Shown here piece by piece: positions 11,363 to 36,279 of a DNA stretch of 43,603 nucleotides. Each line of letters starts with the position of its first letter. Position 1 is the stretch's first letter. The stretch lies in assembly GCA_022706825.1 (NCBI GenBank), contig JAKJBU010000006.1, positions 1 to 43,603 of the forward strand. The letters are read 5' to 3'. The notes beneath the pieces are model-generated. The model ran no database searches. It had not been told where the DNA came from and saw nothing but the letters and a program-made list of their open reading frames with translations. A program made the position numbers and the translations under genes. The DNA comes from Bacillota bacterium (GTDB lineage: Bacteria > Bacillota > Clostridia > Lutisporales > Lutisporaceae).

Positions 11363-11399
11363 ACAGAAATGAAAATTCTTGATGCCGGGGAGTGGTTCC

Positions 11400-12893
11400 A
11401 TGCCTGCAATCAATGAAGAAGACAGCCTCTACAATAAAACTGCCAATGTATCAAGTGATAATATCCGCTCGATTCTCGGAAGCAATGCGGATTATGTATC
11501 CCGTGTCATTCTTGTCAGGGATAAACCTGAAATACCCTCTGTTCTTGTATATATGGACGGGCTGGTAGACGGCAAGCTGATAAATGATAATATACTGAAG
11601 CCCCTTTCCCAGGAGGAGCAGTTTGATTCCTGCAGCGGGGAAGAAGATGCTGTAAGGCTTATAAGCATGGGAAAGATATATTCCTCCTCAATAAAGGTAA
11701 GGACAAATATGAAAGACCTGACTGACGATATACTGACAGGAAGCGCGGCATTGATATTCAATGATGTAAAGACAGCCTTTACCTTTGAAGCCAAAGCTTC
11801 TCTAAGCCGAGCCATCTCCGAGCCTACAGGGGAAAATGTTATTAAGGGTGCTAAGGATTCTTTTATTGAGGACTTAAGGACCAATACCGCTCTGTGCCGT
11901 AAAAAGCTTACCTCTCCATACCTGACAATTGAACAGATTCGTTTGGGAAAACAGACAAAAAGCAATATTGCGATATTATATGTAAAAAATATAGCAAAAA
12001 GCAAATTGATAGATGAAGTGAAACAGAGGCTTGAAGCCATTGATATTGACAGGGTGCTTGACGCAGGTGTTATTGAGGGGGCAATCGTTGATGATAAGTA
12101 TTCTGCATTCCCTCAGATTCAATATACCGAAAGGATTGACAGATTCTGCGCAAGCCTTGTTGAGGGCCGTGCGGGAATACTGATTGAAGGCCTGCCTACG
12201 GCTTATATAGTTCCGGGTACACTGCTTCAATTTCTGCAGGCTCCGGATGACTACTCATTTCAGTTCATTATTGCATCCATTGTCCGATTTATCAGGTTTA
12301 TGAGCATGTTCATAACACTGATACTTCCCGGCTTCTATATATCCATTACCTCCTTTCACCCGGAAATGCTGCCTGCGGAACTGGCCTTCTCAATAGTTGC
12401 ATCCAGGGTGGGAGTGCCCTTCCCGATGTTTGTGGAAGTACTGATACTGCTGCTGGCTTTTGAGCTGTTGATTGAAGCCGGCGTAAGGCTGCCAAAGGTC
12501 ATAGGTCAGACAGTATCTATTGTGGGCGGTCTTGTGGTAGGCCAGGCTGCCGTTGAAGCCAAGCTGGTATCCCCGGCTACCGTGATGATTATTGCAATTA
12601 CTGCCATCGCAGGTTTCCTTATGCCTAATCAGGATTTCAGCAATGCCATAAGGCTCTGGCGCTTGATACTGGCTATATTCGGCAGCATAACAGGTATGTT
12701 TGGGCTCACCTTCGGGTTGATATTCCTTCTCTACCATTGGTGCAGGATTGAGACCTTCGGTGTTCCGTACCTGGACCCCTTTGTCGCCAATGAGGATGAA
12801 CAGCTTCAGGACACCATTTTCCGGCTTCCCCTCTTCACCATGAAGAAGCGGCCAAGCAGCCTTGATTCTAAAAATAAGAAAAGGATGGAGTGA
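11400..12893 (+). CDS. gerKA: Spore germination receptor A subunit (GerA/GerKA family)
   Basis: A 497-residue inner spore-membrane protein. A soluble N-terminal half (about 1-280) includes RVILVRDKPEIPSVLVYMDG and YLTIEQIRLGKQTKSNIAIL. Four or five helices follow (about 285-445), with the family segments VEGRAGILIEGLPTAYIVPG and ITSFHPEMLPAELAFSIVASR, and a charged tail. GerA-family A, B and C subunits form a nutrient-gated channel that starts germination. I start at ATG 11400 with GGGGAG seven bases before it; alternatives at 11382 and 11379 lack a ribosome site. First gene of a four-gene operon. Subtype (GerA, GerB or GerK) is not certain. Confidence 0.92.
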   Translation: MPAINEEDSLYNKTANVSSDNIRSILGSNADYVSRVILVRDKPEIPSVLVYMDGLVDGKLINDNILKPLSQEEQFDSCSGEEDAVRLISMGKIYSSSIKVRTNMKDLTDDILTGSAALIFNDVKTAFTFEAKASLSRAISEPTGENVIKGAKDSFIEDLRTNTALCRKKLTSPYLTIEQIRLGKQTKSNIAILYVKNIAKSKLIDEVKQRLEAIDIDRVLDAGVIEGAIVDDKYSAFPQIQYTERIDRFCASLVEGRAGILIEGLPTAYIVPGTLLQFLQAPDDYSFQFIIASIVRFIRFMSMFITLILPGFYISITSFHPEMLPAELAFSIVASRVGVPFPMFVEVLILLLAFELLIEAGVRLPKVIGQTVSIVGGLVVGQAAVEAKLVSPATVMIIAITAIAGFLMPNQDFSNAIRLWRLILAIFGSITGMFGLTFGLIFLLYHWCRIETFGVPYLDPFVANEDEQLQDTIFRLPLFTMKKRPSSLDSKNKKRME

Positions 12894-12899
12894 GACTTT

Positions 12900-14087
12900 A
12901 TGCGGAGATATGCGATTCTGACAGCCCTGCTGGCTTTAATTGCAGCTTTGTCCGGCTGTGTGCAGATTGCCATGGGAAGAGCAGAAATTGATAAGCTGTT
13001 TATCGTAAGAGTGTTTTCTTTCGATGAAGCAGAGAAGGGCAAGGCCAGGATAACAGTTACTACAAAGGATCTGTCAACGGGAGAAGGCGGAGAAGGTGCA
13101 ACTCAAAAAGGAGAAAGCGTTGTATCCGAAGGAGATACTGTATTTGATGCTGCACGAAACCTGTCAACATACGCAGACAGAAAGCTGAATGCAGGCCATA
13201 CGGAGTTCATACTCTTCGGAGAGTCCATTGCCAGGAAAGGCATACTTCCCTATCTTGATTTCATAAGCAGGCATCCGGAATTCCGTTATAATGCAAAACT
13301 TTATGTAGTTAAAGGAGGTACCGCAAACTCCCTGGTCGAAAAGGCAAGTACCTCGAGATACTTCGTAGGGGACAGGTTAGCCCGTATAGAAGAACATATA
13401 GGCAGAACATCCATATCCGGAATGGTCACGCTTAATGAAGCGCTGCTTATATTTGATGAGAGGAATCTGGATACCTTCATTCCATATATTGAGCCGGTTC
13501 CTACAAGGGTATCGGGAGAAAAACCCGGTACTTATGATATGATACTGAACGGCTATGCAATTTTCCGGGAGGATAAGCTTCTCTACCTCGCTTCACGGGA
13601 AGAATCCCGGGGAATAAACTGGATGCTGAACCGCATTGGTTCAGGGATAATTGTGTTAAAGGATCAAACGGGGCAAGAAATCTCCATGGTGATAATCCAT
13701 GGGAATTCCAGGATAAAGCCCAGGATTGAAGGAGGAGAGCTTCACTGTACAGTTGAAGTATCCTTCGTTACCAACATTGGCGAAATAATGGGAGGCACAA
13801 ACATATTTGACAGAGCTTCATTGGATTACCTTACTAAGCAGCAGGAGAAATCCATAAAACGCGAGGTGGAAAATGCCATAAGAACAGCACAGGAGAAGGA
13901 TTCCGACCATTTCAGCATACTTTCAAAATTCATAATCAAGTACCCTTTACTTCGGGACTATTTTCAGGAAAATTGGCAGGAGCTGTTTCCCAATATCAAA
14001 TTTGAAGTCAGTGTTGATTCCAGGATAGACGGAACCTTCATGATAAATGAACCGATTACCGCAAGCGAGGAGGCTGTGGGTGAATGA
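12900..14087 (+). CDS. gerKC: Spore germination receptor C subunit, lipoprotein (Ger(x)C)
   Basis: A 395-residue lipoprotein: signal MRRYAILTALLALIAALSGC with lipobox LSGC and Cys20 as the lipidated residue. Family motifs follow: DKLFIVRVFSFD, YADRKLNAGHTEFILFGE, the region around GILPYLDFISRHPEFR, and a C-terminal domain with VEVSFVTNIGEIMGG. It is the membrane-tethered C component of the GerA-type complex, needed for receptor assembly. It starts six bases after gerKA and overlaps the next gene by ATGA, so the operon is translationally coupled. Confidence 0.92.
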   Translation: MRRYAILTALLALIAALSGCVQIAMGRAEIDKLFIVRVFSFDEAEKGKARITVTTKDLSTGEGGEGATQKGESVVSEGDTVFDAARNLSTYADRKLNAGHTEFILFGESIARKGILPYLDFISRHPEFRYNAKLYVVKGGTANSLVEKASTSRYFVGDRLARIEEHIGRTSISGMVTLNEALLIFDERNLDTFIPYIEPVPTRVSGEKPGTYDMILNGYAIFREDKLLYLASREESRGINWMLNRIGSGIIVLKDQTGQEISMVIIHGNSRIKPRIEGGELHCTVEVSFVTNIGEIMGGTNIFDRASLDYLTKQQEKSIKREVENAIRTAQEKDSDHFSILSKFIIKYPLLRDYFQENWQELFPNIKFEVSVDSRIDGTFMINEPITASEEAVGE

Positions 14088-14287
14088 AGATATTCGTTTT
14101 GGTGCCTGTTGTGATAATTGTCGTAATAGCAGACATAATACCAATAATAAGAAAGAAACAGCATAAGGAGGCAGCAGTCCTAATAATGCTTGGGGCTGTA
14201 ACCCTGGCCTACGGGTATTACTATATTACCCATGAGCACACTGCCAGCCTGGTAAATCTGATGTTTGACATATTCGGCTCAAGGTAA
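14084..14287 (+). CDS. Small two-helix membrane protein of the germination operon
   Basis: A 67-residue protein with two hydrophobic segments (about 2-22 and 32-49) joined by a basic loop, KKQHKEA. It overlaps the gerKC stop by four bases and is followed 12 bases later by gerKB. Small membrane proteins encoded within or beside ger operons (D subunits) modulate receptor output in other spore formers, and this may be such a subunit. I infer that from position, size and topology, not from similarity. Confidence 0.7.
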   Translation: MKIFVLVPVVIIVVIADIIPIIRKKQHKEAAVLIMLGAVTLAYGYYYITHEHTASLVNLMFDIFGSR

Positions 14288-14299
14288 GGAGATTCTTGT

Positions 14300-15418
14300 A
14301 TGAAAACAGGCAAAGACAAAATATCGGTAAAGCAGCTTTTTTTTGTATTTACGATAATGATATCCTCTCCCACAACAAGACTGCTTCCCAAATATGCGGC
14401 AGCAAAAGCCGAACAGGCAGGCTGGGTGTCCCCGATTGTTAGCACGGTGCCCTTTATTCTGCTGCTGCTGGTTATTGACTCTCTGTTGAAGAAGTACAAA
14501 GGGCAGAGCATGTCTGATATTATCAGCAGTATTATAGGAAAATTCCTGGGAAAGCTGGTACTGGTGGTATATTTGCTGTGGGCTCTCTGGCTCACGGCTA
14601 TGTATAGCCGTTATTATACCGAGCGGCTTACCAGTTCGATTTATGTCAACATCGACATTAATGTATTTATAATATTAGCTCTTATTCCAATAGCATACAT
14701 ACTCCGTTCCGGTTTCACCCCTATTGCACGGATGAGCGAAATACTGCTGCCCTTCATAGGGGCAATGCTTATAATGCTGGCACTCTTTTTATTTCCCAAG
14801 GTCAGGGCAGATAATCTGCTTCCGGTCTATTTCAACGACATAGTGCCTATATTCAAAGGGAGTATCTCTATAACAGGGGTGCTGTCCTATCTGTTCCTTA
14901 TGTTCTTCCTGAGCGACAAGATTGTGAACCTGAAAAGCCTTCGAAAATTCGGCTATATCGCTTCTTGTGTGAATATTTCAAGCATAATGGTGGTAAACTT
15001 CATTGTAATAGGCGTACTGGGCAGTTCCCTTGCCAGGAGGGTTTACATGCCCGTTCTGACTGTTGTCAAACAGATTTCCATAATGGATATTATAGAAAAT
15101 ATTGAGGCTGTAGTAGTTGCCATATGGATTTTCGCCGACTTCACACTTATTGCCACTCTGCTTGTTATTGTGCTCAACCTTATTAAGTCAATATTTAACT
15201 TATCTGATACAAAACCCCTGATTAATATTCTTGCTGTCTTGGTATATTATCTCTCCCTGGGAATAAGTGCCGGAAGGTTTGAGCTGGAGGATTTCACCAA
15301 TAAGCTGCTCATGCCGATAAACCTGACCCTGGGCTACGGATTTCCCTTCGTACTGTTCGCTCTATCAACGCTTAAAAAAAAGAAACAGCCTAAAAAAGCG
15401 GTCAATCCTTCCCGATAA
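14300..15418 (+). CDS. gerKB: Spore germination receptor B subunit (GerAB/GerKB permease family)
   Basis: A 372-residue, ten-helix protein of the amino-acid-permease-like GerAB family. The start KISVKQLFFVFTIMISSPTT and the following LLPKYAAAKAEQAGWVSP are typical of the first helix region, where the B subunit recognises the nutrient germinant. AAGGAG precedes the start. It completes the A-C-small-B operon order. Its last codons and stop lie inside a stem-loop (15404-15431) that terminates the convergent coat gene and could also end this transcript. Confidence 0.9.
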   Translation: MKTGKDKISVKQLFFVFTIMISSPTTRLLPKYAAAKAEQAGWVSPIVSTVPFILLLLVIDSLLKKYKGQSMSDIISSIIGKFLGKLVLVVYLLWALWLTAMYSRYYTERLTSSIYVNIDINVFIILALIPIAYILRSGFTPIARMSEILLPFIGAMLIMLALFLFPKVRADNLLPVYFNDIVPIFKGSISITGVLSYLFLMFFLSDKIVNLKSLRKFGYIASCVNISSIMVVNFIVIGVLGSSLARRVYMPVLTVVKQISIMDIIENIEAVVVAIWIFADFTLIATLLVIVLNLIKSIFNLSDTKPLINILAVLVYYLSLGISAGRFELEDFTNKLLMPINLTLGYGFPFVLFALSTLKKKKQPKKAVNPSR

Positions 15419-15438: not shown

Positions 15439-15903
15439 TTACTGCGGATTGTACAAGCCCATACTCTCCATATACTTGAAGACACTCTCTCCATGCTGCT
15501 GCTCTTCTTTCTGTATATGGTTCAGGGTTTGGCGGATGTTTGGATCCCTGAATTCAAATATAGCCGTATCGTATGCTCCTGAAACATACTTCTCAGTCAT
15601 TAGAATATCGTTGCACAGGTCCCCGTCGCTTTTGCTTCCGGTTCCTGCTTTTATGGGCTGCTGGCCCTGTGCCCCCTGCTGGCCTTGCTGCTGATTCTGG
15701 TTCATGCTCGGCATCTGTCCGCTTAAAAGCTGGTTGATGGTATTAAGATGCTGCTGCTCATGTTTTGCATGAGAGCTGAAAAGCTGCTTCAGTTGAGGGT
15801 CTTGGGCCTTGTTTGCATAATCATTGTATTTCTTAATGCATATCTCCTCATGGGTTTTCTGGTCCTGAAGCAACCCCTTTTCCTTTTGAGTCAGATTGTT
15901 CAT
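15439..15903 (-). CDS. cotF: CotF-like spore coat protein, long form
   Basis: A 154-residue protein: an N-terminal helical hairpin (LTQKEKGLLQDQKTHEEICI, later HAKHEQQHLNTINQLL), a Gln-rich linker with repeated QQGQ near 66-82, and a C-terminal Coat_F hairpin (NDILMTEKYVSGAYDTAIFE, then HIQKEEQQHGESVFKYMES). Met/His/Glu positions recall ferritin-like folds. The start is ATG 15903 with GGAGGTGATTTT before it; an upstream in-frame ATG has no such site. It follows the giant surface-protein gene by 45 bases, possibly on one transcript, and ends at a hairpin. Confidence 0.85.
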   Translation of the reverse strand: MNNLTQKEKGLLQDQKTHEEICIKKYNDYANKAQDPQLKQLFSSHAKHEQQHLNTINQLLSGQMPSMNQNQQQGQQGAQGQQPIKAGTGSKSDGDLCNDILMTEKYVSGAYDTAIFEFRDPNIRQTLNHIQKEEQQHGESVFKYMESMGLYNPQ

Positions 15904-15948
15904 AAAATCACCTCCGGCTTTAGTATTTTTCATTGTAAGCAAAATATA

Positions 15949-17370
15949 CTAAAAGTCTTCGGTTTCATCTTCCATAACAGTTACAATTACTTTGTACTCA
16001 ATATAAGAGTCATCATTTGCCGTTATTTTGTAAACAACCTCGCTGCTGAAATCATTAGGTGTTATACCGCTGTGCTGCTGCACTTCCCCAACATATACCG
16101 ACTTTCCCAGATAAGAGAATGAAGCAATCAAGTTTGACACAATTGTATTAGATGGAACAGATACTCTGATTATATGGTTCTGCTGATCGATACGTCCTCT
16201 TGCCTTTGGTTTCAAACCTGCAAATCCAAATCTTAATAATTTTTTTTCATTTTCATCTGCAACTTTGACTGTTACAGTATAGTTCCGGGTTGAGCCGTCC
16301 TGTGCTGCAACAGTATATATTACCGGATTGGTAAAATCATTTACTGTCTCTCCGCTCTTCTGCTCTTTGCTTCCAATCAGGACTTTACTGTTTTCCGAAC
16401 TGACGAATACTGCCGCAAGTCCATTCAGTGAAGTTCCAAAGGGTACAGTAACGTTTATTTGATTCTCTGCTTCATTTATAACTCCTTCCGCTTCGGGAAC
16501 AGAGAATCCGAATTCCTTAATAAGCTTTTCACTGCTGGGAGCTGCATTGACTGTCACAGTATATTCCCTGACAGTACCGTCCTGTGCTGTTACAATGTAC
16601 TTTACAGGGTTTGTAAAATCTTGCACTGTCTCTCCGCTAACCTGCTCCGCTCCTTCCACCTTTACAACAGCTTCCGGCGAAACCTTGAAGGATGCAACAA
16701 GCTTGGTTCTGTCTGTACCGTAGGGTACTGTAAGTTCTATAGTCTTTTGCTCCTTGCCTACTTCTGCCTTTATAACAGGTTCCAATGCTCTGAATGCGAA
16801 AACGGTTATACGGTTTTCTGAGTTTGGTGCTCTTTTCACGATTACGGTATACTCCTTTGTTGTTCCATCCTCAGCTGTTACTATATATACTACCGGTCCA
16901 CTGAAATCAGGCTCTTTACCTGACTTAACAGATATCCAGGTATTGTCCGGTATATCTATAACAGGCACCAGCTTGCTCAGGTCTGTTCTGTAGGGCACTG
17001 TAACAGTAATAATCCTTTTTTCCTCATCTATCTCCCCGATGGCGGACTTAGGCCTTTCAAACCTGAAGGCTTTTATGGATTTGTCAAGCTCCTTTGCAAT
17101 GGTCACCACTACCTTATAATCCTGTGAAGATCCGTCCTGGGCAATAACGGTATAGGTAACCTCCCCGGAAAAGTCATTGACGGTTTCTCCGCTGATCTGC
17201 CTCTTTCCTTTCACCTCTACCACAGCATGCTCCGAACACTTGAAGCTTGCAGCCAGATTCTTCACATCCGTTCCATGGGGCACTGTCAGGCTGATTCTCC
17301 TGTCTTTCTTATCAATGTTTCCGTCTATTCCGCTTGCAAGATTCTTGAAGCTGAAGCTGGTGATTTCCTT
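15949..17370 (-). repeat. Five tandem coding repeats (about 285 bp each) in the giant surface protein
   Basis: Units begin near 17370, 17085, 16810, 16520 and 16240 on the minus strand. Each encodes a beta-sandwich domain starting FxFxxxxxxxxGxI and ending DGSxxxYxVxV. Units 1, 3 and 4 keep SGETV-DF; unit 2 has lost it (KSGKEPDFSGP) and unit 5 is the most divergent. Confidence 0.75.
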
Positions 17371-20300
17371 TAAAGAGGACGCAGCCGGAGGATCCGGCTT
17401 ATTTTCATCATCAGCTATGCCGCGAAAGCTATATGATACCCCGTCAGCTGTTATTCTGTATTTATCATTCTTATACAGCGGTTCTTTTGATGTTACTCTG
17501 AATACGTTATTGCTGATCCTCAAAGTACTGTCAATCAGATTTTCTCCTACGGCATTCCCGTCTCCATCCAGCCTATACAGGCTGCTTACCCTGGATATCC
17601 TGCTGCTCTTGTAAACCCTGAGATTGTATTCATTCAGCATATCCACACCCTGGATGTAATCACTGCTCATGATGCTGGATCCCTCAAAGTCTATCTCCAG
17701 GCCGTCAATATCCAGTTTGTTTCCTGCAATATCCACCGCAGCAGACTTGGGCTCCAGGATATAATAGTATTCGTCACTCATCTCATCCTTTGTATATATA
17801 TTTACCTTTGTATTGTCTTCAGGATCAACTTCTACAAAGTCAATACTTATTGTTCTAAGATCTCCGTCATCATCTTCATAAGTTATCTTATAACTCCCCG
17901 GCTCTCTTATGGCTTCACTGAATTCCACCTGAACCTTTTTGCAGTTAATGGCTTCAACATCTTCAATATACGGCTCATCATCATCCTCCTCATATGATTC
18001 AAGAATGGTGCAGTTTGAATCTCCGTGGTCATCATCTTCATCATATGCGCCTAACCCCGCATAGTCTTCTACCATTTCAGTAAAATTGAATCTGAATTCT
18101 TTGTCAGGGGGTATGTTTCTATTTTTTGCTATATAATCCACAGTGCAATAAGCTTCATCATCATCCTCATCATCGGGATTAAGCACTGCTTTCCATTCTA
18201 TACCTACCCCTCCGGGATTTTGGATTCCTGATATTCCCTCTCCTTTAAGCAGTACCGGCTCCGTGAAAACTACCCGGAATCTTCTTACATCCATCTGATT
18301 CCAGCCGTCCACTTTCGGCGGGTCATTCTCATAATCAATTCCGTAGAACTCCAGGCCGTCTTCTAATTCATATTTATTGCCCCTCATGTCCCATATGCCT
18401 TTAAGCTCGGTTACTTCGTACACTTCATTATCTTTCAGCACTTTATTTCCATCTATGACCATCACAACTGCAGTTCCGTCTTCCAGCACACTTCCCGCCT
18501 GTTTGAATTTAATGCCTGACGCTTTCATCTCAGCGTTTTCTGCATACACTTCCTCCTCAAAATGCATCCAGACCTCTTTCTCATTTACAGCATCTATATA
18601 ATCCACCTCCGGAGGATCATCATCATAATGACTGCCGCTGTATAGTATGTCTACTTCTACATTGCGCATCATGTTGCCCGACAGGTCCTGAATACTGTTC
18701 ATCTGTACTGTATGATTCCTGCCTGAGGACAGGGAGCTGACCGTAAGCCTGACGCTTTTTCCGTCTTGCTGCAGCACTGCCTTTGTAACCAGGGCTAATC
18801 CGTCTATCCTGTAATTGATTATATTCTCCGCCGATTCCTCATCCAAGGTATCGTCGAAGTGCAACTCCAGAGTTCTGCTGTCTATACACTGAACAGAGGT
18901 TATATATGGTGGAGTTCTGTCCTCGCCTATTCCTTTGAATCTGTATGTTTTATCACTGCTTGAAGACTTCATTTCATTTCCGAATTCATCATATATGCCG
19001 CTGATTCTAAGTGAATACCTTTCAGATTTTTCCATCTCTTCCGTAATCAGCAGCACTGTCCTGCCCCCCGTTGAATACAAATCATCGGGATTCTTTATTC
19101 TTGCGTCCAGAATCTCCAAGCCTTCCTCTATCTCATAGCAGTCAATGTCGCAGGCTGATTCCACATCAAGAGCATTGGAATCCGAAAACTCAACTTCTAC
19201 CATTGTGTTTGTGACTGCCCTTGGATCATTGGCAACGGTGGGCCCCGATTTATCCTTTGACTTTCCTCTGAATTCCTTTTTTATTTCTCTGGTTATGCTG
19301 TTTCCCAATACCGAATCGTCCTTCATATCTTTAATTATCAGAGTATATTTCATTCCTGCTTCCTGGCTTTCAGTCACAAGATACACAGAATCCCACAAAC
19401 CGTCTTCATCCATGTCTTTGGCCTCAGCCGATTCCACCTCCAGGTCCCCGTCGCTGCCGGTTATACTATAGTTGTCCTCATCCTGAGCTGTGGATTTATC
19501 CAATCCGTTGCTGTCCGAAAACTCAAGAAGCAGCCTTACATTGTTCAAAACCGTAAGCTTACTCAGCTTTGGAGCGCTTGTATCCCTTCTCCCTGAGAAC
19601 CTTTTCGTGATTGACTTTGTTACCGCTCCGTCGCCATTCTTTATATTGCGTATTTTAAGCTCGTAGGATTCTCCTGATTCAATGCCGCTGGTAGTAAGCC
19701 TCACCTTGGTATTTGTACTGTCCAGCTCCGCCGACCTTATGCTTGCTCCTGAAATCGTATAAGTATCCGTATCCTGGGCTGTTTCATTATCCAATACTCT
19801 GTCAAAGGTAAGCTCCAGCAGGTCTGTATCCCTGCATTCGATCTTAATGAGTTTTGGAGAAGTCTTATCCTTTTTCAGGCCCCTGAAGCTATAGTCCTTA
19901 TCATTGAATTCCAATGTGTAGGAAGTGTTTTCCTTCATTGCCGAGGTATCTATTATTACAGCATATTCATTCTTCATACTTACTTTGTTTATGTCAAGAT
20001 GCTTAATTTCATACAGATCCTCATCTTCCGCATCGGTACCGTCAATGGACTCCTTAAAAACAACCTCCACCTTGCTGTTTGAAATAGCCCTTACGTCTTT
20101 TACCTCTGCCTCCAATTCCTTGGAGTACAAGCCTGCTGATATTGCATCCCACTTATCCACATCCCCTATATCCACCAGGTATTCTATAAGTGTCCTGCGC
20201 TCTCCCTTCATTTTGGTATTGAGAGCCTCAACCGTGGCAATCGCAAGGCTTCTTACCGTAAAGTTCTTGGTACCGGCTACCTTCTCCAGGCCCTTTTTTT

Positions 20301-20781
20301 CTGCAAATTCAAGCACTTCCTCCCAATCAAAATCCCCGTCGCCGTCAATTTTCTGCTTATAGCCCAGACTTTCCAGGAGTACCTTGTAATATGCCCTCGA
20401 ATCTATCAGGCTGTAAGGTATGAAGTTCACTCCGTCGCCAATCCACCCAAGCTCCGGGTGATTTTTCAGGTAACTCAGCACATTTCTGCCTTCTTCCCAG
20501 GCAATTACACCGGCATCCTTGAAGTTCTTTCCTCCGTAATAGTCCAACGCATCCTGTTCCAAACCCTTAAGCCTCAGGAACATTATTGCCGCCTGCAGCC
20601 TGCTGGGGCGCGTTTCAAGGTATGCTTCGTCTACAATTCCGGTATGCCCCTTCAGTATACCCAAATCTCTGCATATACGCCCCTCATAGCCGATATCATC
20701 ATCGGCAATAACCTGCACCGGCAGTATTGCGCTTAGAACCAGCGCAAAAATTGTAAGAACAGTTACAAACTTTCTGACCAT
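15949..20781 (-). CDS. Giant SLH-like/Ig-repeat cell-surface protein
   Basis: A 1610-residue secreted protein. A signal peptide (1-26, ending near VQVIADDD) is followed by a region of degenerate SLH-like segments (about 30-215). Then come about eight SbsA/Big_5-type Ig-like units (about 228-1110), recognisable by recurring xVEVxF or LELxF strands and DExTAxDxxxYxI stretches, with very acidic loops (DDEDDDEA, YDEDDDHGDS). Finally five cadherin-like/DUF5018-like beta-sandwich repeats (about 1138-1605) share VPyGTdlxxL and SGETVnDFtnPVxYtVtAqDGs-type motifs. It probably coats the cell or spore surface and may bind calcium. ATG 20781 is chosen because AAGGAGGT lies seven bases before it; an earlier in-frame start lacks this. 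There is no LPXTG motif, so any wall attachment would be through the SLH part. Confidence 0.88.
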   Translation of the reverse strand: MVRKFVTVLTIFALVLSAILPVQVIADDDIGYEGRICRDLGILKGHTGIVDEAYLETRPSRLQAAIMFLRLKGLEQDALDYYGGKNFKDAGVIAWEEGRNVLSYLKNHPELGWIGDGVNFIPYSLIDSRAYYKVLLESLGYKQKIDGDGDFDWEEVLEFAEKKGLEKVAGTKNFTVRSLAIATVEALNTKMKGERRTLIEYLVDIGDVDKWDAISAGLYSKELEAEVKDVRAISNSKVEVVFKESIDGTDAEDEDLYEIKHLDINKVSMKNEYAVIIDTSAMKENTSYTLEFNDKDYSFRGLKKDKTSPKLIKIECRDTDLLELTFDRVLDNETAQDTDTYTISGASIRSAELDSTNTKVRLTTSGIESGESYELKIRNIKNGDGAVTKSITKRFSGRRDTSAPKLSKLTVLNNVRLLLEFSDSNGLDKSTAQDEDNYSITGSDGDLEVESAEAKDMDEDGLWDSVYLVTESQEAGMKYTLIIKDMKDDSVLGNSITREIKKEFRGKSKDKSGPTVANDPRAVTNTMVEVEFSDSNALDVESACDIDCYEIEEGLEILDARIKNPDDLYSTGGRTVLLITEEMEKSERYSLRISGIYDEFGNEMKSSSSDKTYRFKGIGEDRTPPYITSVQCIDSRTLELHFDDTLDEESAENIINYRIDGLALVTKAVLQQDGKSVRLTVSSLSSGRNHTVQMNSIQDLSGNMMRNVEVDILYSGSHYDDDPPEVDYIDAVNEKEVWMHFEEEVYAENAEMKASGIKFKQAGSVLEDGTAVVMVIDGNKVLKDNEVYEVTELKGIWDMRGNKYELEDGLEFYGIDYENDPPKVDGWNQMDVRRFRVVFTEPVLLKGEGISGIQNPGGVGIEWKAVLNPDDEDDDEAYCTVDYIAKNRNIPPDKEFRFNFTEMVEDYAGLGAYDEDDDHGDSNCTILESYEEDDDEPYIEDVEAINCKKVQVEFSEAIREPGSYKITYEDDDGDLRTISIDFVEVDPEDNTKVNIYTKDEMSDEYYYILEPKSAAVDIAGNKLDIDGLEIDFEGSSIMSSDYIQGVDMLNEYNLRVYKSSRISRVSSLYRLDGDGNAVGENLIDSTLRISNNVFRVTSKEPLYKNDKYRITADGVSYSFRGIADDENKPDPPAASSLKEITSFSFKNLASGIDGNIDKKDRRISLTVPHGTDVKNLAASFKCSEHAVVEVKGKRQISGETVNDFSGEVTYTVIAQDGSSQDYKVVVTIAKELDKSIKAFRFERPKSAIGEIDEEKRIITVTVPYRTDLSKLVPVIDIPDNTWISVKSGKEPDFSGPVVYIVTAEDGTTKEYTVIVKRAPNSENRITVFAFRALEPVIKAEVGKEQKTIELTVPYGTDRTKLVASFKVSPEAVVKVEGAEQVSGETVQDFTNPVKYIVTAQDGTVREYTVTVNAAPSSEKLIKEFGFSVPEAEGVINEAENQINVTVPFGTSLNGLAAVFVSSENSKVLIGSKEQKSGETVNDFTNPVIYTVAAQDGSTRNYTVTVKVADENEKKLLRFGFAGLKPKARGRIDQQNHIIRVSVPSNTIVSNLIASFSYLGKSVYVGEVQQHSGITPNDFSSEVVYKITANDDSYIEYKVIVTVMEDETEDF

Positions 20782-21203
20782 CAAACGTACCTCCTTAAAA
20801 ATATCAGTGCTTACCGACAAAACTGTCAATGGTGCACCCCTTTGATGTTTAAATGGCAGATACTCGCCTAATAATTAGATATGACTCTTTTCATGCAAAC
20901 TGTACTGCTTTGATGATTTGTAATATACTCTTAACAGCTCTGTAATATTTGGCGGCACCATCTATATTCTCCTTATTTTATAGTACAACCCATATTCTTT
21001 CAATAATTACAGTTCGTCCCATTTCTACTATATTTTCGGCCGACAGTCAATTGCCGTATAATGCTGTAACTTTTCGCAGGCTATGAGATTAAATTTGATT
21101 GATCCGGTAATAATATGGAAAGAAAACAATCCGGTGCGGTTGAAATAATACAAGACTGGCCAGGCTGTAGTATATGGCGGGCATACTTGCAATTACCGAT
21201 CAT
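20782..21203. other. 422-bp gap before the folT promoter
   Basis: This gap separates the leftward giant gene from the rightward folT unit. On the minus strand TTGACA (20829-20824) with TGATAT (20806-20801) 17 bp away is a possible promoter for the giant gene, though it would leave a leader of only about 13 bases. A TATAAT at 21057-21062 lacks a good -35. I see no convincing reading frame; a 30-codon frame at 21115 has no ribosome site. Confidence 0.4.
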
Positions 21204-34254: not shown

Positions 34255-34314
34255 GTAGAATAAAATCAAGGCAATAATATGAAGCCTGAAACTATTAAAG
34301 AAAGGGTGAAAAAA

Positions 34315-34821
34315 ATGAAAAAAGCGCTATTAGCTACTGTATTGGTTCTTACGTTGGTATTAACATCATTTTCAGTTTTTGCAGATGGTGATCAAAGCAT
34401 ACTATCAAAAGTCACAGGATTGAGCGATGATGAAATATCAGAGCTGAGAACTCAGAGAATCGGTTATGGACAGCTTATACCGGCATCTGTGCTTTCAGAA
34501 ATGCTTGGCATGGACATTAAAGATGTAATAGGACTGAGGAAGGCAGGAAAGTCATACTATCAGATAGCTGTTGACAAAGGAGTAACTGCCGGGGATTACA
34601 AAAAAAGCCTGCTTGAAAAGAGAAATGCTTATATTGATGAGCAGGTTAAGTCGGGAAGCATCACAGAAGATCAGGGCAACCTCATAAAGGAAAGAATGAG
34701 CGTAAACATTGACGGCTGTACCGGTCAGACTCCAGGGGCAGGCAGATTCGGCGGTGGATGCGGTATGGGCGGAGGCTTCGGCAGAGGCTTCGACAGAGGA
34801 TTCGGCCGCGGCTCCCTATAA
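34315..34821 (+). CDS. Secreted DUF2680/YckD-like protein with a Gly-rich tail
   Basis: A 168-residue exported protein: signal peptide 1-24 (MKKALLATVLVLTLVLTSFS, then VFADG), a helical middle region (ILSKVTGLSDDEISELRTQR; KKSLLEKRNAYIDEQVKSGS), and a C-terminal tail rich in Gly, Arg and Phe (repeats of GFGRGF, GFDRGF). The piece NAYIDEQVKSGSITEDQG resembles the DUF2680/YckD motif. Function unknown; some relatives respond to envelope or metal stress. Start ATG 34315 has AAAGGGTG before it; the in-frame ATG at 34279 would place 12 charged residues ahead of the signal peptide. It is divergent from the two-component system. Confidence 0.75.
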   Translation: MKKALLATVLVLTLVLTSFSVFADGDQSILSKVTGLSDDEISELRTQRIGYGQLIPASVLSEMLGMDIKDVIGLRKAGKSYYQIAVDKGVTAGDYKKSLLEKRNAYIDEQVKSGSITEDQGNLIKERMSVNIDGCTGQTPGAGRFGGGCGMGGGFGRGFDRGFGRGSL

Positions 34822-34887: not shown

Positions 34888-35130
34888 TTAGCATTGGGAA
34901 GGACCGTGATTGTCTTCCTCAGCCACTGCATTAACATTGATTATCACAACATTGTTCAAAACAAATATGAACTTAATCTTTTTGGGGCAGCAGATATCAT
35001 CGTCATGACAGCCACCGTTATAGCTTGCTTGTTCCCTTGCAACCATCATTTCTTTTACAGCATCCATATTTCCGGCAAGCACCCTTGCTGCTTCAGCTGA
35101 CAGTAATTCCGGCATCTTTACATATTCCAT
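34888..35130 (-). CDS. Unknown small protein, cluster member 1
   Basis: An 80-residue protein. N-terminal motif MEYVKMPELLSAEAARVLAG, a short linker ending CHDDDICCPKK, then a strongly hydrophobic beta-like segment (IKFIFVLNNVVIINVNAVAEE) and a short tail ending in Cys. It closely matches member 3 (35874) at both ends but lacks that protein's charged middle. It has a good ribosome site (AAAGGAGGTG) and its own upstream element (35167-35221). There is no signal peptide. I do not recognise the family. Cys pairs and a sticky beta segment suggest a self-assembling structural protein, perhaps of the spore, but that is only inference. Confidence 0.75.
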   Translation of the reverse strand: MEYVKMPELLSAEAARVLAGNMDAVKEMMVAREQASYNGGCHDDDICCPKKIKFIFVLNNVVIINVNAVAEEDNHGPSQC

Positions 35131-35166
35131 AAATTCACCTCCTTTCATTTTCTGGGCGGAGAATTT

Positions 35167-35221
35167 GAACCGGTTCGTCTTCTTCCAATAGCATTATATG
35201 ACTTGTACATTTTATTGCTAC
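35167..35221 (-). repeat. Duplicated upstream element, copy 1
   Basis: A 55-bp segment, 53 of 55 bases identical to 36225-36279, lies upstream of cluster member 1. On the minus strand it contains TATAAT inside GTCATATAATG, bracketed by CAATA(A/G) and CTATTG, and a TGTACA palindrome. It is probably the promoter region plus the start of the leader. Confidence 0.8.
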
Positions 35222-35281
35222 TGATTGTACAATAAACTCTATCAACATTTTCTCACAATATCCCATACTCCATAAACCAAG

Positions 35282-35782
35282 TTACAGCTCCATCCTTTTA
35301 GCTGACAATTGCTCCTCTATTTCGAGTATCTCTCTTTTACACCGGGCAACCAGTTTCCTGTTAAATATCTGTCGGGGTATCAGTTTCAGGATTTTTTCAA
35401 TTTCGTTTTTTCTTGCTTCAAGTATTTCCATCTCCATCCATATCTGTTTATGTCTGCCTGAAATGTCTCCCCAGTCGTCATGCCCTTTCTCATGGCCCCT
35501 GTCACCTATCTTTATATGACAGCCTTCAATATGCTCTTCCGCCTTTTCCCTGCAGCGGCCTTTATTGCAATCATCTGATGCATTATCCAGACCAATAGTA
35601 ACGTTGCAAAACACAAGCTTGACATTCGTCGGATTACCTCCGCATTCCATACTACAGTTCTGCCCGACGATAACCTGCTCCCCCGGCTGAGGATCGGTAA
35701 TCGCTTTCAGCACTTCAGGATTTTCAGCTATCACTTCTGCAAACTTCGGTGTTATTAATTCAGGCATAATAACTTGATCCAT
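35282..35782 (-). CDS. Unknown protein, cluster member 2 (Cys/His-rich)
   Basis: A 166-residue protein. Its N-terminus (MDQVIMPELITPKFAEVIAE) matches the motif of its two neighbours. A middle segment PTNVKLVFCNVTIGL parallels their PKKVKFIF...VVIN strand. It then differs: a Cys/His-rich stretch (CNKGRCREKAEEHIEGCH, then GDRGHEKGHDDWGD) that could bind metal, and a helical, probably coiled-coil C-terminus (about 108-166, EMEILEARKNEIEKILKLI). GGGAGGTGATG precedes the start. No family recognised. A strong palindrome (35826-35859) lies upstream instead of the element found before members 1 and 3. Confidence 0.75.
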   Translation of the reverse strand: MDQVIMPELITPKFAEVIAENPEVLKAITDPQPGEQVIVGQNCSMECGGNPTNVKLVFCNVTIGLDNASDDCNKGRCREKAEEHIEGCHIKIGDRGHEKGHDDWGDISGRHKQIWMEMEILEARKNEIEKILKLIPRQIFNRKLVARCKREILEIEEQLSAKRMEL

Positions 35783-35825
35783 GTTTTCATCACCTCCCTT
35801 GCTGGATTCTGCTATGTATAGTAAA

Positions 35826-35859
35826 GCATAGGTACAATAATTGAATTATGTACCTATGC
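35826..35859. promoter_or_regulatory. 34-bp near-perfect palindrome upstream of cluster member 2
   Basis: Arms GCATAGGTACA (35826-35836) and TGTACCTATGC (35849-35859) are perfect, and the 12 bases between are themselves TAATT-G-AATTA plus one A. It could be an operator, or a terminator for member 3 on the minus strand, although only TTTACTAT follows. Confidence 0.6.
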
Positions 35860-35873
35860 ATTTCATATTATCT

Positions 35874-36188
35874 TTAGCCCGGAGTGTTATTTTCTTCAGC
35901 CAATGCGTTGACATTAATCACTACTGCATTATTCAACAGAAATATGAACTTGACTTTTTTAGGACAGCAGATTTCATCATCGTCTATTACCCTTCTTGCT
36001 TTATGCTTTGGCTGTGCACATTCATTGTCTTCATATTTTCTTTCCTTCTTGTCTGCTTTGAAAAAATCTTTCAAGGCTGCCGCCATTTCATCTTTGGGGC
36101 TTGGTTCTTCTTTAACAGTGTGCACATTGCCTGCCAATGCTTTTACCAATTCAGGCGAAAGCATACCCGGCATTTTTACATATCCCAT
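35874..36188 (-). CDS. Unknown small protein, cluster member 3
   Basis: A 104-residue paralogue of member 1: MGYVKMPGMLSPELVKALAG at the start and DDDEICCPKKVKFIFLLNN then AVVINVNALAEEN at the end. Between them is a charged, Lys/Glu-rich spacer of about 35 residues (ALKDFFKADKKERKYEDNEC). Only the ends are conserved, so they are the functional parts. Start ATG 36188 has GGGGAGGTG before it. The duplicated element lies 36 bases upstream. First in the row of three same-strand genes. Function unknown. Confidence 0.75.
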   Translation of the reverse strand: MGYVKMPGMLSPELVKALAGNVHTVKEEPSPKDEMAAALKDFFKADKKERKYEDNECAQPKHKARRVIDDDEICCPKKVKFIFLLNNAVVINVNALAEENNTPG

Positions 36189-36224
36189 GGATTCACCTCC
36201 CCTCATTAAATTGACAGAGATTCA

Positions 36225-36279
36225 GAACCGGTTTGTCTTCTTCCAATAGCATTATATGACTTGTACATTCTATTGCTAC
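36225..36279 (-). repeat. Duplicated upstream element, copy 2
   Basis: Partner of 35167-35221, differing at two positions. It lies at the same distance (36 bases) upstream of its start codon as copy 1, so promoter, leader and start were duplicated as a unit. The bases between element and ribosome site are not conserved. Confidence 0.8.

Follow-up and report, generated by a model that had tools for sequence, protein, structure and literature searches.

The window, the whole 43,603-nt stretch of DNA analysed here, carries between positions 34888 and 36279 a trio of minus-strand frames, here named M1, M2, and M3, all of which are present as an earlier note on this DNA had described them. Each has an ATG behind the ribosome-binding site GGAGGTGA, and the starts were set by this site together with ortholog conservation. 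The longer frames of the earlier note had translated the ribosome-binding site itself (as MKGGEF or MRGGES), and their starts were moved downstream to the ATG. Transcription runs in the order M3, M2, M1, with gaps of 91 bp (M3/M2) and 151 bp (M2/M1), and position 36279, where the earlier note had ended the cluster, is the start of the conserved promoter block of M3. The genes and their associated elements are as follows.

34888..35130, minus strand: M1, 80 aa; N-terminal motif MEYVKMPELLS, short linker, C-terminal module CCPKKIKFIFVLNNVVIINVNA; found in 6/6 genus genomes, under purifying selection
35166..35221, minus strand: M1 promoter/leader block, the same block as before M3
35282..35782, minus strand: M2, 166 aa; N-terminal MDQVIMPELIT, Cys43/Cys47/Cys59 region, variable His/Cys stretch, C-terminal helical hairpin
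35826..35859, minus strand: inverted repeat between M3 and M2, GCATAGGTAC...GTACCTATGC; 10 bp, conserved, RNA hairpin z = -3.1, no T-run, no covariation
35874..36188, minus strand: M3, 104 aa; N-terminal MGYVKMPGMLS, 44-aa charged linker, C-terminal module CCPKKVKFIFLLNNAVVINVNA
36224..36279, minus strand: M3 promoter/leader block, GTAGCAATAGAATGTACAAGTCATATAATGCTATTGGAAGAAGACAAACCGGTTC, containing CATATAAT; conserved

M1, M2, and M3 are real genes under purifying selection. The dN/dS ratio is about 0.07 to 0.36 across species (for pairs with unsaturated synonymous sites), and substitutions fall mostly at third codon positions. The tandem arrangement held up in comparison, with order and strand kept in five species of the genus (G000, G002, G003, G004, and G005); the sixth member, G001, has M1, which lies 77 bp from a contig end, and a short M2-like gene. 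The earlier note would have given up its reading if the frames were not conserved in related genomes; they were found in the five species, with M1 also in the sixth. The signature RBS-ATG-x-x-hydrophobic-x-Met-Pro-[EG]-x-x occurs only in the cassette among 245 genomes of the class, with three copies per genome in three genomes and two copies in a fourth.

The block preceding M1 and M3, GTAGCAATA-AATGTACAAGTCATATAATGCTATTGGAAGAAGACAAACCGGTT, is present in ten copies (two genes in each of five species) that are near-invariant while their flanks diverge, and the distance from GTACAAG to the ribosome-binding site is 65–66 nt in all 10. No further copies with two or fewer mismatches were found in any of 22 genomes. 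At position -69/-70, the M1 and M3 blocks carry CATATAAT, which reads CATACTAT in one copy. The same CATATAAT is the -10 box, with AC at -35, of a sigma-K-dependent promoter of the Clostridioides difficile sigK gene (PMC3789822). Using the sigma-K consensus AC, 16–17 nt, CATAnnnT, we found that M1 and M3 lack AC at the canonical -35 position and that three distant copies described below (G504, G734b, and G771b) have AC 16–17 nt upstream of CATAnnnT. Of 12 family genes, 8 have the CATAnnnT element upstream, against 9 among 78 control genes (Fisher p = 1e-4, an optimistic value because the 12 genes counted are related to one another).

An RNA structure was also considered for the promoter block, and its candidate CAATAG/CTATTG stem was seen by eye to fail in orthologs. 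The inverted repeat between M3 and M2 could plausibly form an RNA hairpin, with a possible role in processing or attenuation. A search of Rfam returned nothing credible.

Constant and variable parts of the proteins

When 11 M1/M3 orthologs were aligned, M1 and M3 proved to have two parts in common, an N-terminal stretch of 26 residues with the MPELLS motif and a C-terminal, hairpin-like module, CC(P)KKxKxIFxLNNxVxINxN. Identity between the two proteins is 0.50 over the N-terminal 26 residues, 0.08 over the middle, and 0.70 over the C-terminal 30 residues, in agreement with the earlier claim that their ends are the same. An M1 query finds M3 in its own genome with E = 2.5e-13 and 71% identity across the module. 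The middles, which had been called interchangeable, do differ and are better termed linkers of variable length and charge; they span 15–17 residues in M1 orthologs and 39–47 in M3 orthologs. The module had been given as D-D-x-I-C-C-P-K-K, of which the C-C-(P)-K-K portion is kept in relatives and D-D-x-I is not (others have DCCC or ECCC). The Cys-Cys pair is invariant across the distant homologues. After the module, M1 and M3 of the window species have Ala (VAEE, LAEE) where most relatives have Cys (VCEE).

AlphaFold models are poor (mean pLDDT of 51 and 47). That of M1 is of low confidence throughout and suggests two helices and a two-strand hairpin. A comparison of folds was abandoned, the AF2 models being too poor and no PDB match falling below E = 0.4.

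M2 is related to the other two proteins through its N-terminal end, as had been proposed; a profile–profile comparison over 27 residues gave E = 8e-7, and the A1 (M1/M3) profile matches M2 in 5 genomes with E of about 1e-3. The strand module also attributed to M2 is only marginally similar. The proposed coiled coil is retained in the form of a predicted helical hairpin (residues 110–134 and 142–165, block pLDDT of about 63–88), with the rest of M2 modeled at low confidence. As for the Cys/His-rich region, a stretch at residues 68–105 is indeed present and is the least conserved part of M2. Only C43, C47, C59, H89, and C148 are invariant Cys or His positions in the five M2 orthologs, the others being lost in some. 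Because this region is poorly conserved, metal binding by M2 is unsupported, and the metal-binding partner of the earlier note was rejected.

In two species, a short M2-like gene containing only the hairpin part (with the shared IPRQ...NRKL sequence) lies between M1 and cotS (L035:8967-9254 in G002 and L069:417-710 in G001), and the hairpin can therefore exist alone.

Genomic setting and distribution

In genus members with both flanks on the contig, the cassette occupies the interval between the genes for pyruvate phosphate dikinase (PPDK) and thiolase. Its convergent neighbor lies outside the cassette and, together with spore-related genes elsewhere in the window, is listed here.

11379..15418, plus strand: gerA/gerC/gerB-type germinant receptor genes (PF03323, 1e-164; PF05504; PF03845)
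15439..15942, minus strand: CotF-type spore coat protein gene (PF07875, Coat_F, 7.6e-26)
34279..34821, plus strand: DUF2680-like gene, at the same locus in relatives and in genera without the cassette

The N-terminal half of the CotF-type protein resembles encapsulin-associated ferritin-like proteins, and its C-terminal half is Coat_F. Positions 15949–20829 encode a repetitive protein of 1626 aa that looks surface-protein-like by eye.

Six genomes from other genera of the family were examined at the PPDK–thiolase site, and none has a diverged copy of the cassette there; the site is either vacant or occupied by unrelated genes. Without the cassette, PPDK is followed directly by the DUF2680 gene in G012 and directly by thiolase in G020.

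The cassette adjoins spore-related genes in three of the six genus species. In G001 and G002, it is followed by a pair of CotS-family genes (matching TIGR02906 at up to 4.5e-100) and also by an amphi-Trp-like gene and genes for a GT4 glycosyltransferase, a UDP-sugar dehydrogenase, and an epimerase. In G003, a gene upstream of the cassette resembles that for spore photoproduct lyase (TIGR04070, 5e-71, which is under the curated cut-off). CotS-family neighbors occur in only 2/6 genus members, apparently because other genes were inserted at this locus, and elsewhere the neighbors are metabolic. Of the two CotS-family genes, the second is broken into two frames in G002 (L035:9395-10424) and intact in G001 (L069:770-1801), reflecting recent decay or an assembly error. 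The surroundings in G001 and G002 resemble the Bacillus subtilis cotS/cotSA/ytc-type locus in their CotS-family pair and in the genes for the GT4 glycosyltransferase, the UDP-sugar dehydrogenase, and the epimerase. This likeness concerns the neighbors only; there is no sequence relation to M1–M3, and such genes are absent beside the cassette in other species.

Searching 391 genomes of the class with the M1/M3 and M2 profiles gave matches in this genus only. Among 398 sampled genomes of the phylum, four distant ones gave credible matches, namely G504 (E = 3.5e-16), G734 (two), G771 (three), and G517 (module only). The profile, which was built from a single genus, tells distant homologues apart from shuffled copies; only the most divergent homologues (G734a, G734b, and G771a) are not resolved in this way. 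G771 and G734 have four-gene tandem arrays, and the distant arrays are located between tadA and pcm. Copies c and d of G771 repeat the design seen in the window, with constant ends and a variable middle in tandem; copy c has the sequence MAEMPNALTPENIAAV...ECCCPRRVKFFIFGNTWINNYNAQC, and copy d differs from it by a longer, basic middle (KRRHKKDRNE) between the same ends. Copy b of this array is the module alone. In G517, the module CCPKFIKFKIIASTVIIINDNAECEDD (L087:3480-3710) is out of frame with the preceding peptide because of a frameshift or sequencing error. A further match, in G690 (E = 0.005), falls within a frame that resembles pseudouridine synthase and was taken as false. Since homologues occur in distant spore-forming Bacillota, we take the family to be patchy and either old or horizontally spread. 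All hosts that were checked have sporulation genes, as known from gene content; among the distant hosts, sigK is present in G517 and bofA in G734.

Searches of Pfam, NCBIfam, PHROG, and PDB gave no significant match for M1, M2, or M3, and Pfam and NCBIfam gave none for the distant homologues. The family could not be named in the earlier note either, and no match to a characterized family of another role emerged. PHROG, viral, phage, and plasmid searches gave no match to the cassette. The Ena domain of Pfam was absent from 11 M1/M3 members, 5 M2 members, and 5 distant homologues. The exosporium leader TIGR03720 was without an NCBIfam match, and the sequences contain no Gly-X-Y (collagen-like) repeats. 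For homology to CsxA/CsxB/CdeC-like exosporium proteins, the comparison covered PDB chains, none of which matched the A1 or A2 profile. Most coat proteins have narrow and complex distributions (PMC3533761). Because lineage specificity is a known property of coat proteins, the M1/M3/M2 family, which is new and unannotated, belongs to a known kind.

Proposed role and competing explanations

M1, M2, and M3 probably serve as structural components of the spore's outer envelope, either the coat or the exosporium, with sigma-K-type promoters driving their late synthesis in the mother cell. We favor this reading because of the spore-gene neighbors in three of six species, the sigma-K-type -10 boxes, the presence of sporulation genes in the hosts, the Cys-Cys module, the tandem paralogy, and the patchy distribution. 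The idea of a spore or envelope structure had been raised in the earlier note; the cotS-family, glycosyltransferase, and spl-like neighbors, the CATATAAT boxes, the hosts with their sporulation genes, and the Cys-Cys pair now lend it indirect support, and the metal-binding partner drops out. Expression of M1–M3 during sporulation, their location, cross-linking, and assembly are what we infer from sequence. In the proposed mechanism, the common N-terminal helix-forming motif (M-x-x-V-K-M-P-E-L-L-[ST]-x-E) would dock each protein to a shared partner or to one another, the C-terminal module with its Cys-Cys pair and beta-hairpin-like part would pack into a sheet locked by disulfides, and the charged linker of variable length would set the spacing. 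M2 would act as an adaptor in which a helical hairpin replaces the full module.

Known spore-surface systems offer partial parallels. The exosporium of Clostridium sporogenes contains the Cys-rich proteins CsxA–C and a CotS-family protein (PMC4942563), and CotS-family genes adjoin the M1–M3 cassette in two species. Like M1–M3, the Csx proteins and C. difficile CdeC are Cys-rich, lineage-restricted, and without an enzymatic domain, and are proposed to be cross-linked spore-surface material, although the Csx proteins exceed M1–M3 in both size and Cys content (CsxA has 25 Cys in 299 aa, CsxC 14 Cys in 273 aa) (PMC4942563). BclA-type proteins likewise join different bodies to a common short N-terminal motif, which in BclA docks to the spore surface, but the BclA leader is Pro-rich and is accompanied by collagen-like repeats (TIGR03720), whereas M1–M3 have a helix-forming MPELLS motif and no such repeats (PMC11952670). 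Ena subunits (S-ENA and F-ENA/DUF4183) are also small and encoded in multi-gene loci, and the double-Cys motif of S-ENA adjoins a beta domain, comparable to the Cys-Cys pair of the hairpin-like M1/M3 module; the Cys-Cys pair lies in a C-terminal module of about 30 residues in M1/M3 and in an N-terminal connector in Ena subunits (PMC11952670). A bolder version, which we rate as quite improbable, is that M1/M3-type proteins are self-assembling subunits of an undescribed fiber or crystalline spore-surface layer in several Bacillota lineages, in which tandem paralogues with different spacers would form different parts.

Sporulation-linked proteins need not be structural, and M1–M3, instead of making up the bulk of the coat, could serve CotS-type kinases as adaptors, chaperones, or substrates. 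The cotS-family neighbors in two species, the stand-alone hairpin protein adjoining cotS, the M2 hairpin, and the acidic M1 tails would suit such a role, which we nevertheless consider unlikely, given that conservation of the cotS neighbors extends neither to the whole genus nor to the distant arrays and that tandem duplication together with conserved Cys pairs would be more expected of structural proteins. Small vegetative proteins of the cell surface or cytoplasm, with no link to sporulation, are a similarly unlikely explanation. They would accord with the mostly metabolic neighbors (PPDK, thiolase, aconitase X, and a two-component system) and with the sigma-A hexamer TATAAT contained within CATATAAT; against them stand the enrichment of CATAnnnT, the one copy reading CATACTAT, which is a poor sigma-A box, the adjoining spore genes in half of the species, and N-termini in which inspection revealed no signal-peptide-like hydrophobic segment.

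Both remaining alternatives are far less credible. Precursor peptides (RiPP or bacteriocin-like), with an N-terminal leader and a Gly-Gly ahead of a Cys-rich core, are suggested by the leader-like N-terminal helix, the "GG-C" of most M1 orthologs, and the tandem copies. We regard this as very improbable: no modification enzyme or exporter was recognized next to any copy, conservation is highest in the C-terminal "core", in contrast to diversifying RiPP cores, and a 166-aa partner with a helical hairpin would be atypical. That the frames arose by chance or decay, or belong to a phage or plasmid cassette, is extremely improbable; the restriction to one genus within the class would fit, but purifying selection, the fixed chromosomal PPDK–thiolase locus, and the lack of PHROG, viral, phage, or plasmid matches speak against it.

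If M1–M3 are indeed spore envelope proteins, they would be an example of how spore surfaces are built mostly from small, lineage-specific, Cys-rich proteins overlooked by annotation. For an unannotated family across distant Bacillota, the analysis supplies a signature (MPExL[ST]PE ... variable ... CCCPxxxKFxxFxNxWIxNxN), a 14-row alignment, and a distribution, together with a testable division into docking motif, spacer, and cross-linking module. The proteins are thereby candidate spore-surface markers for uncultured Clostridia.
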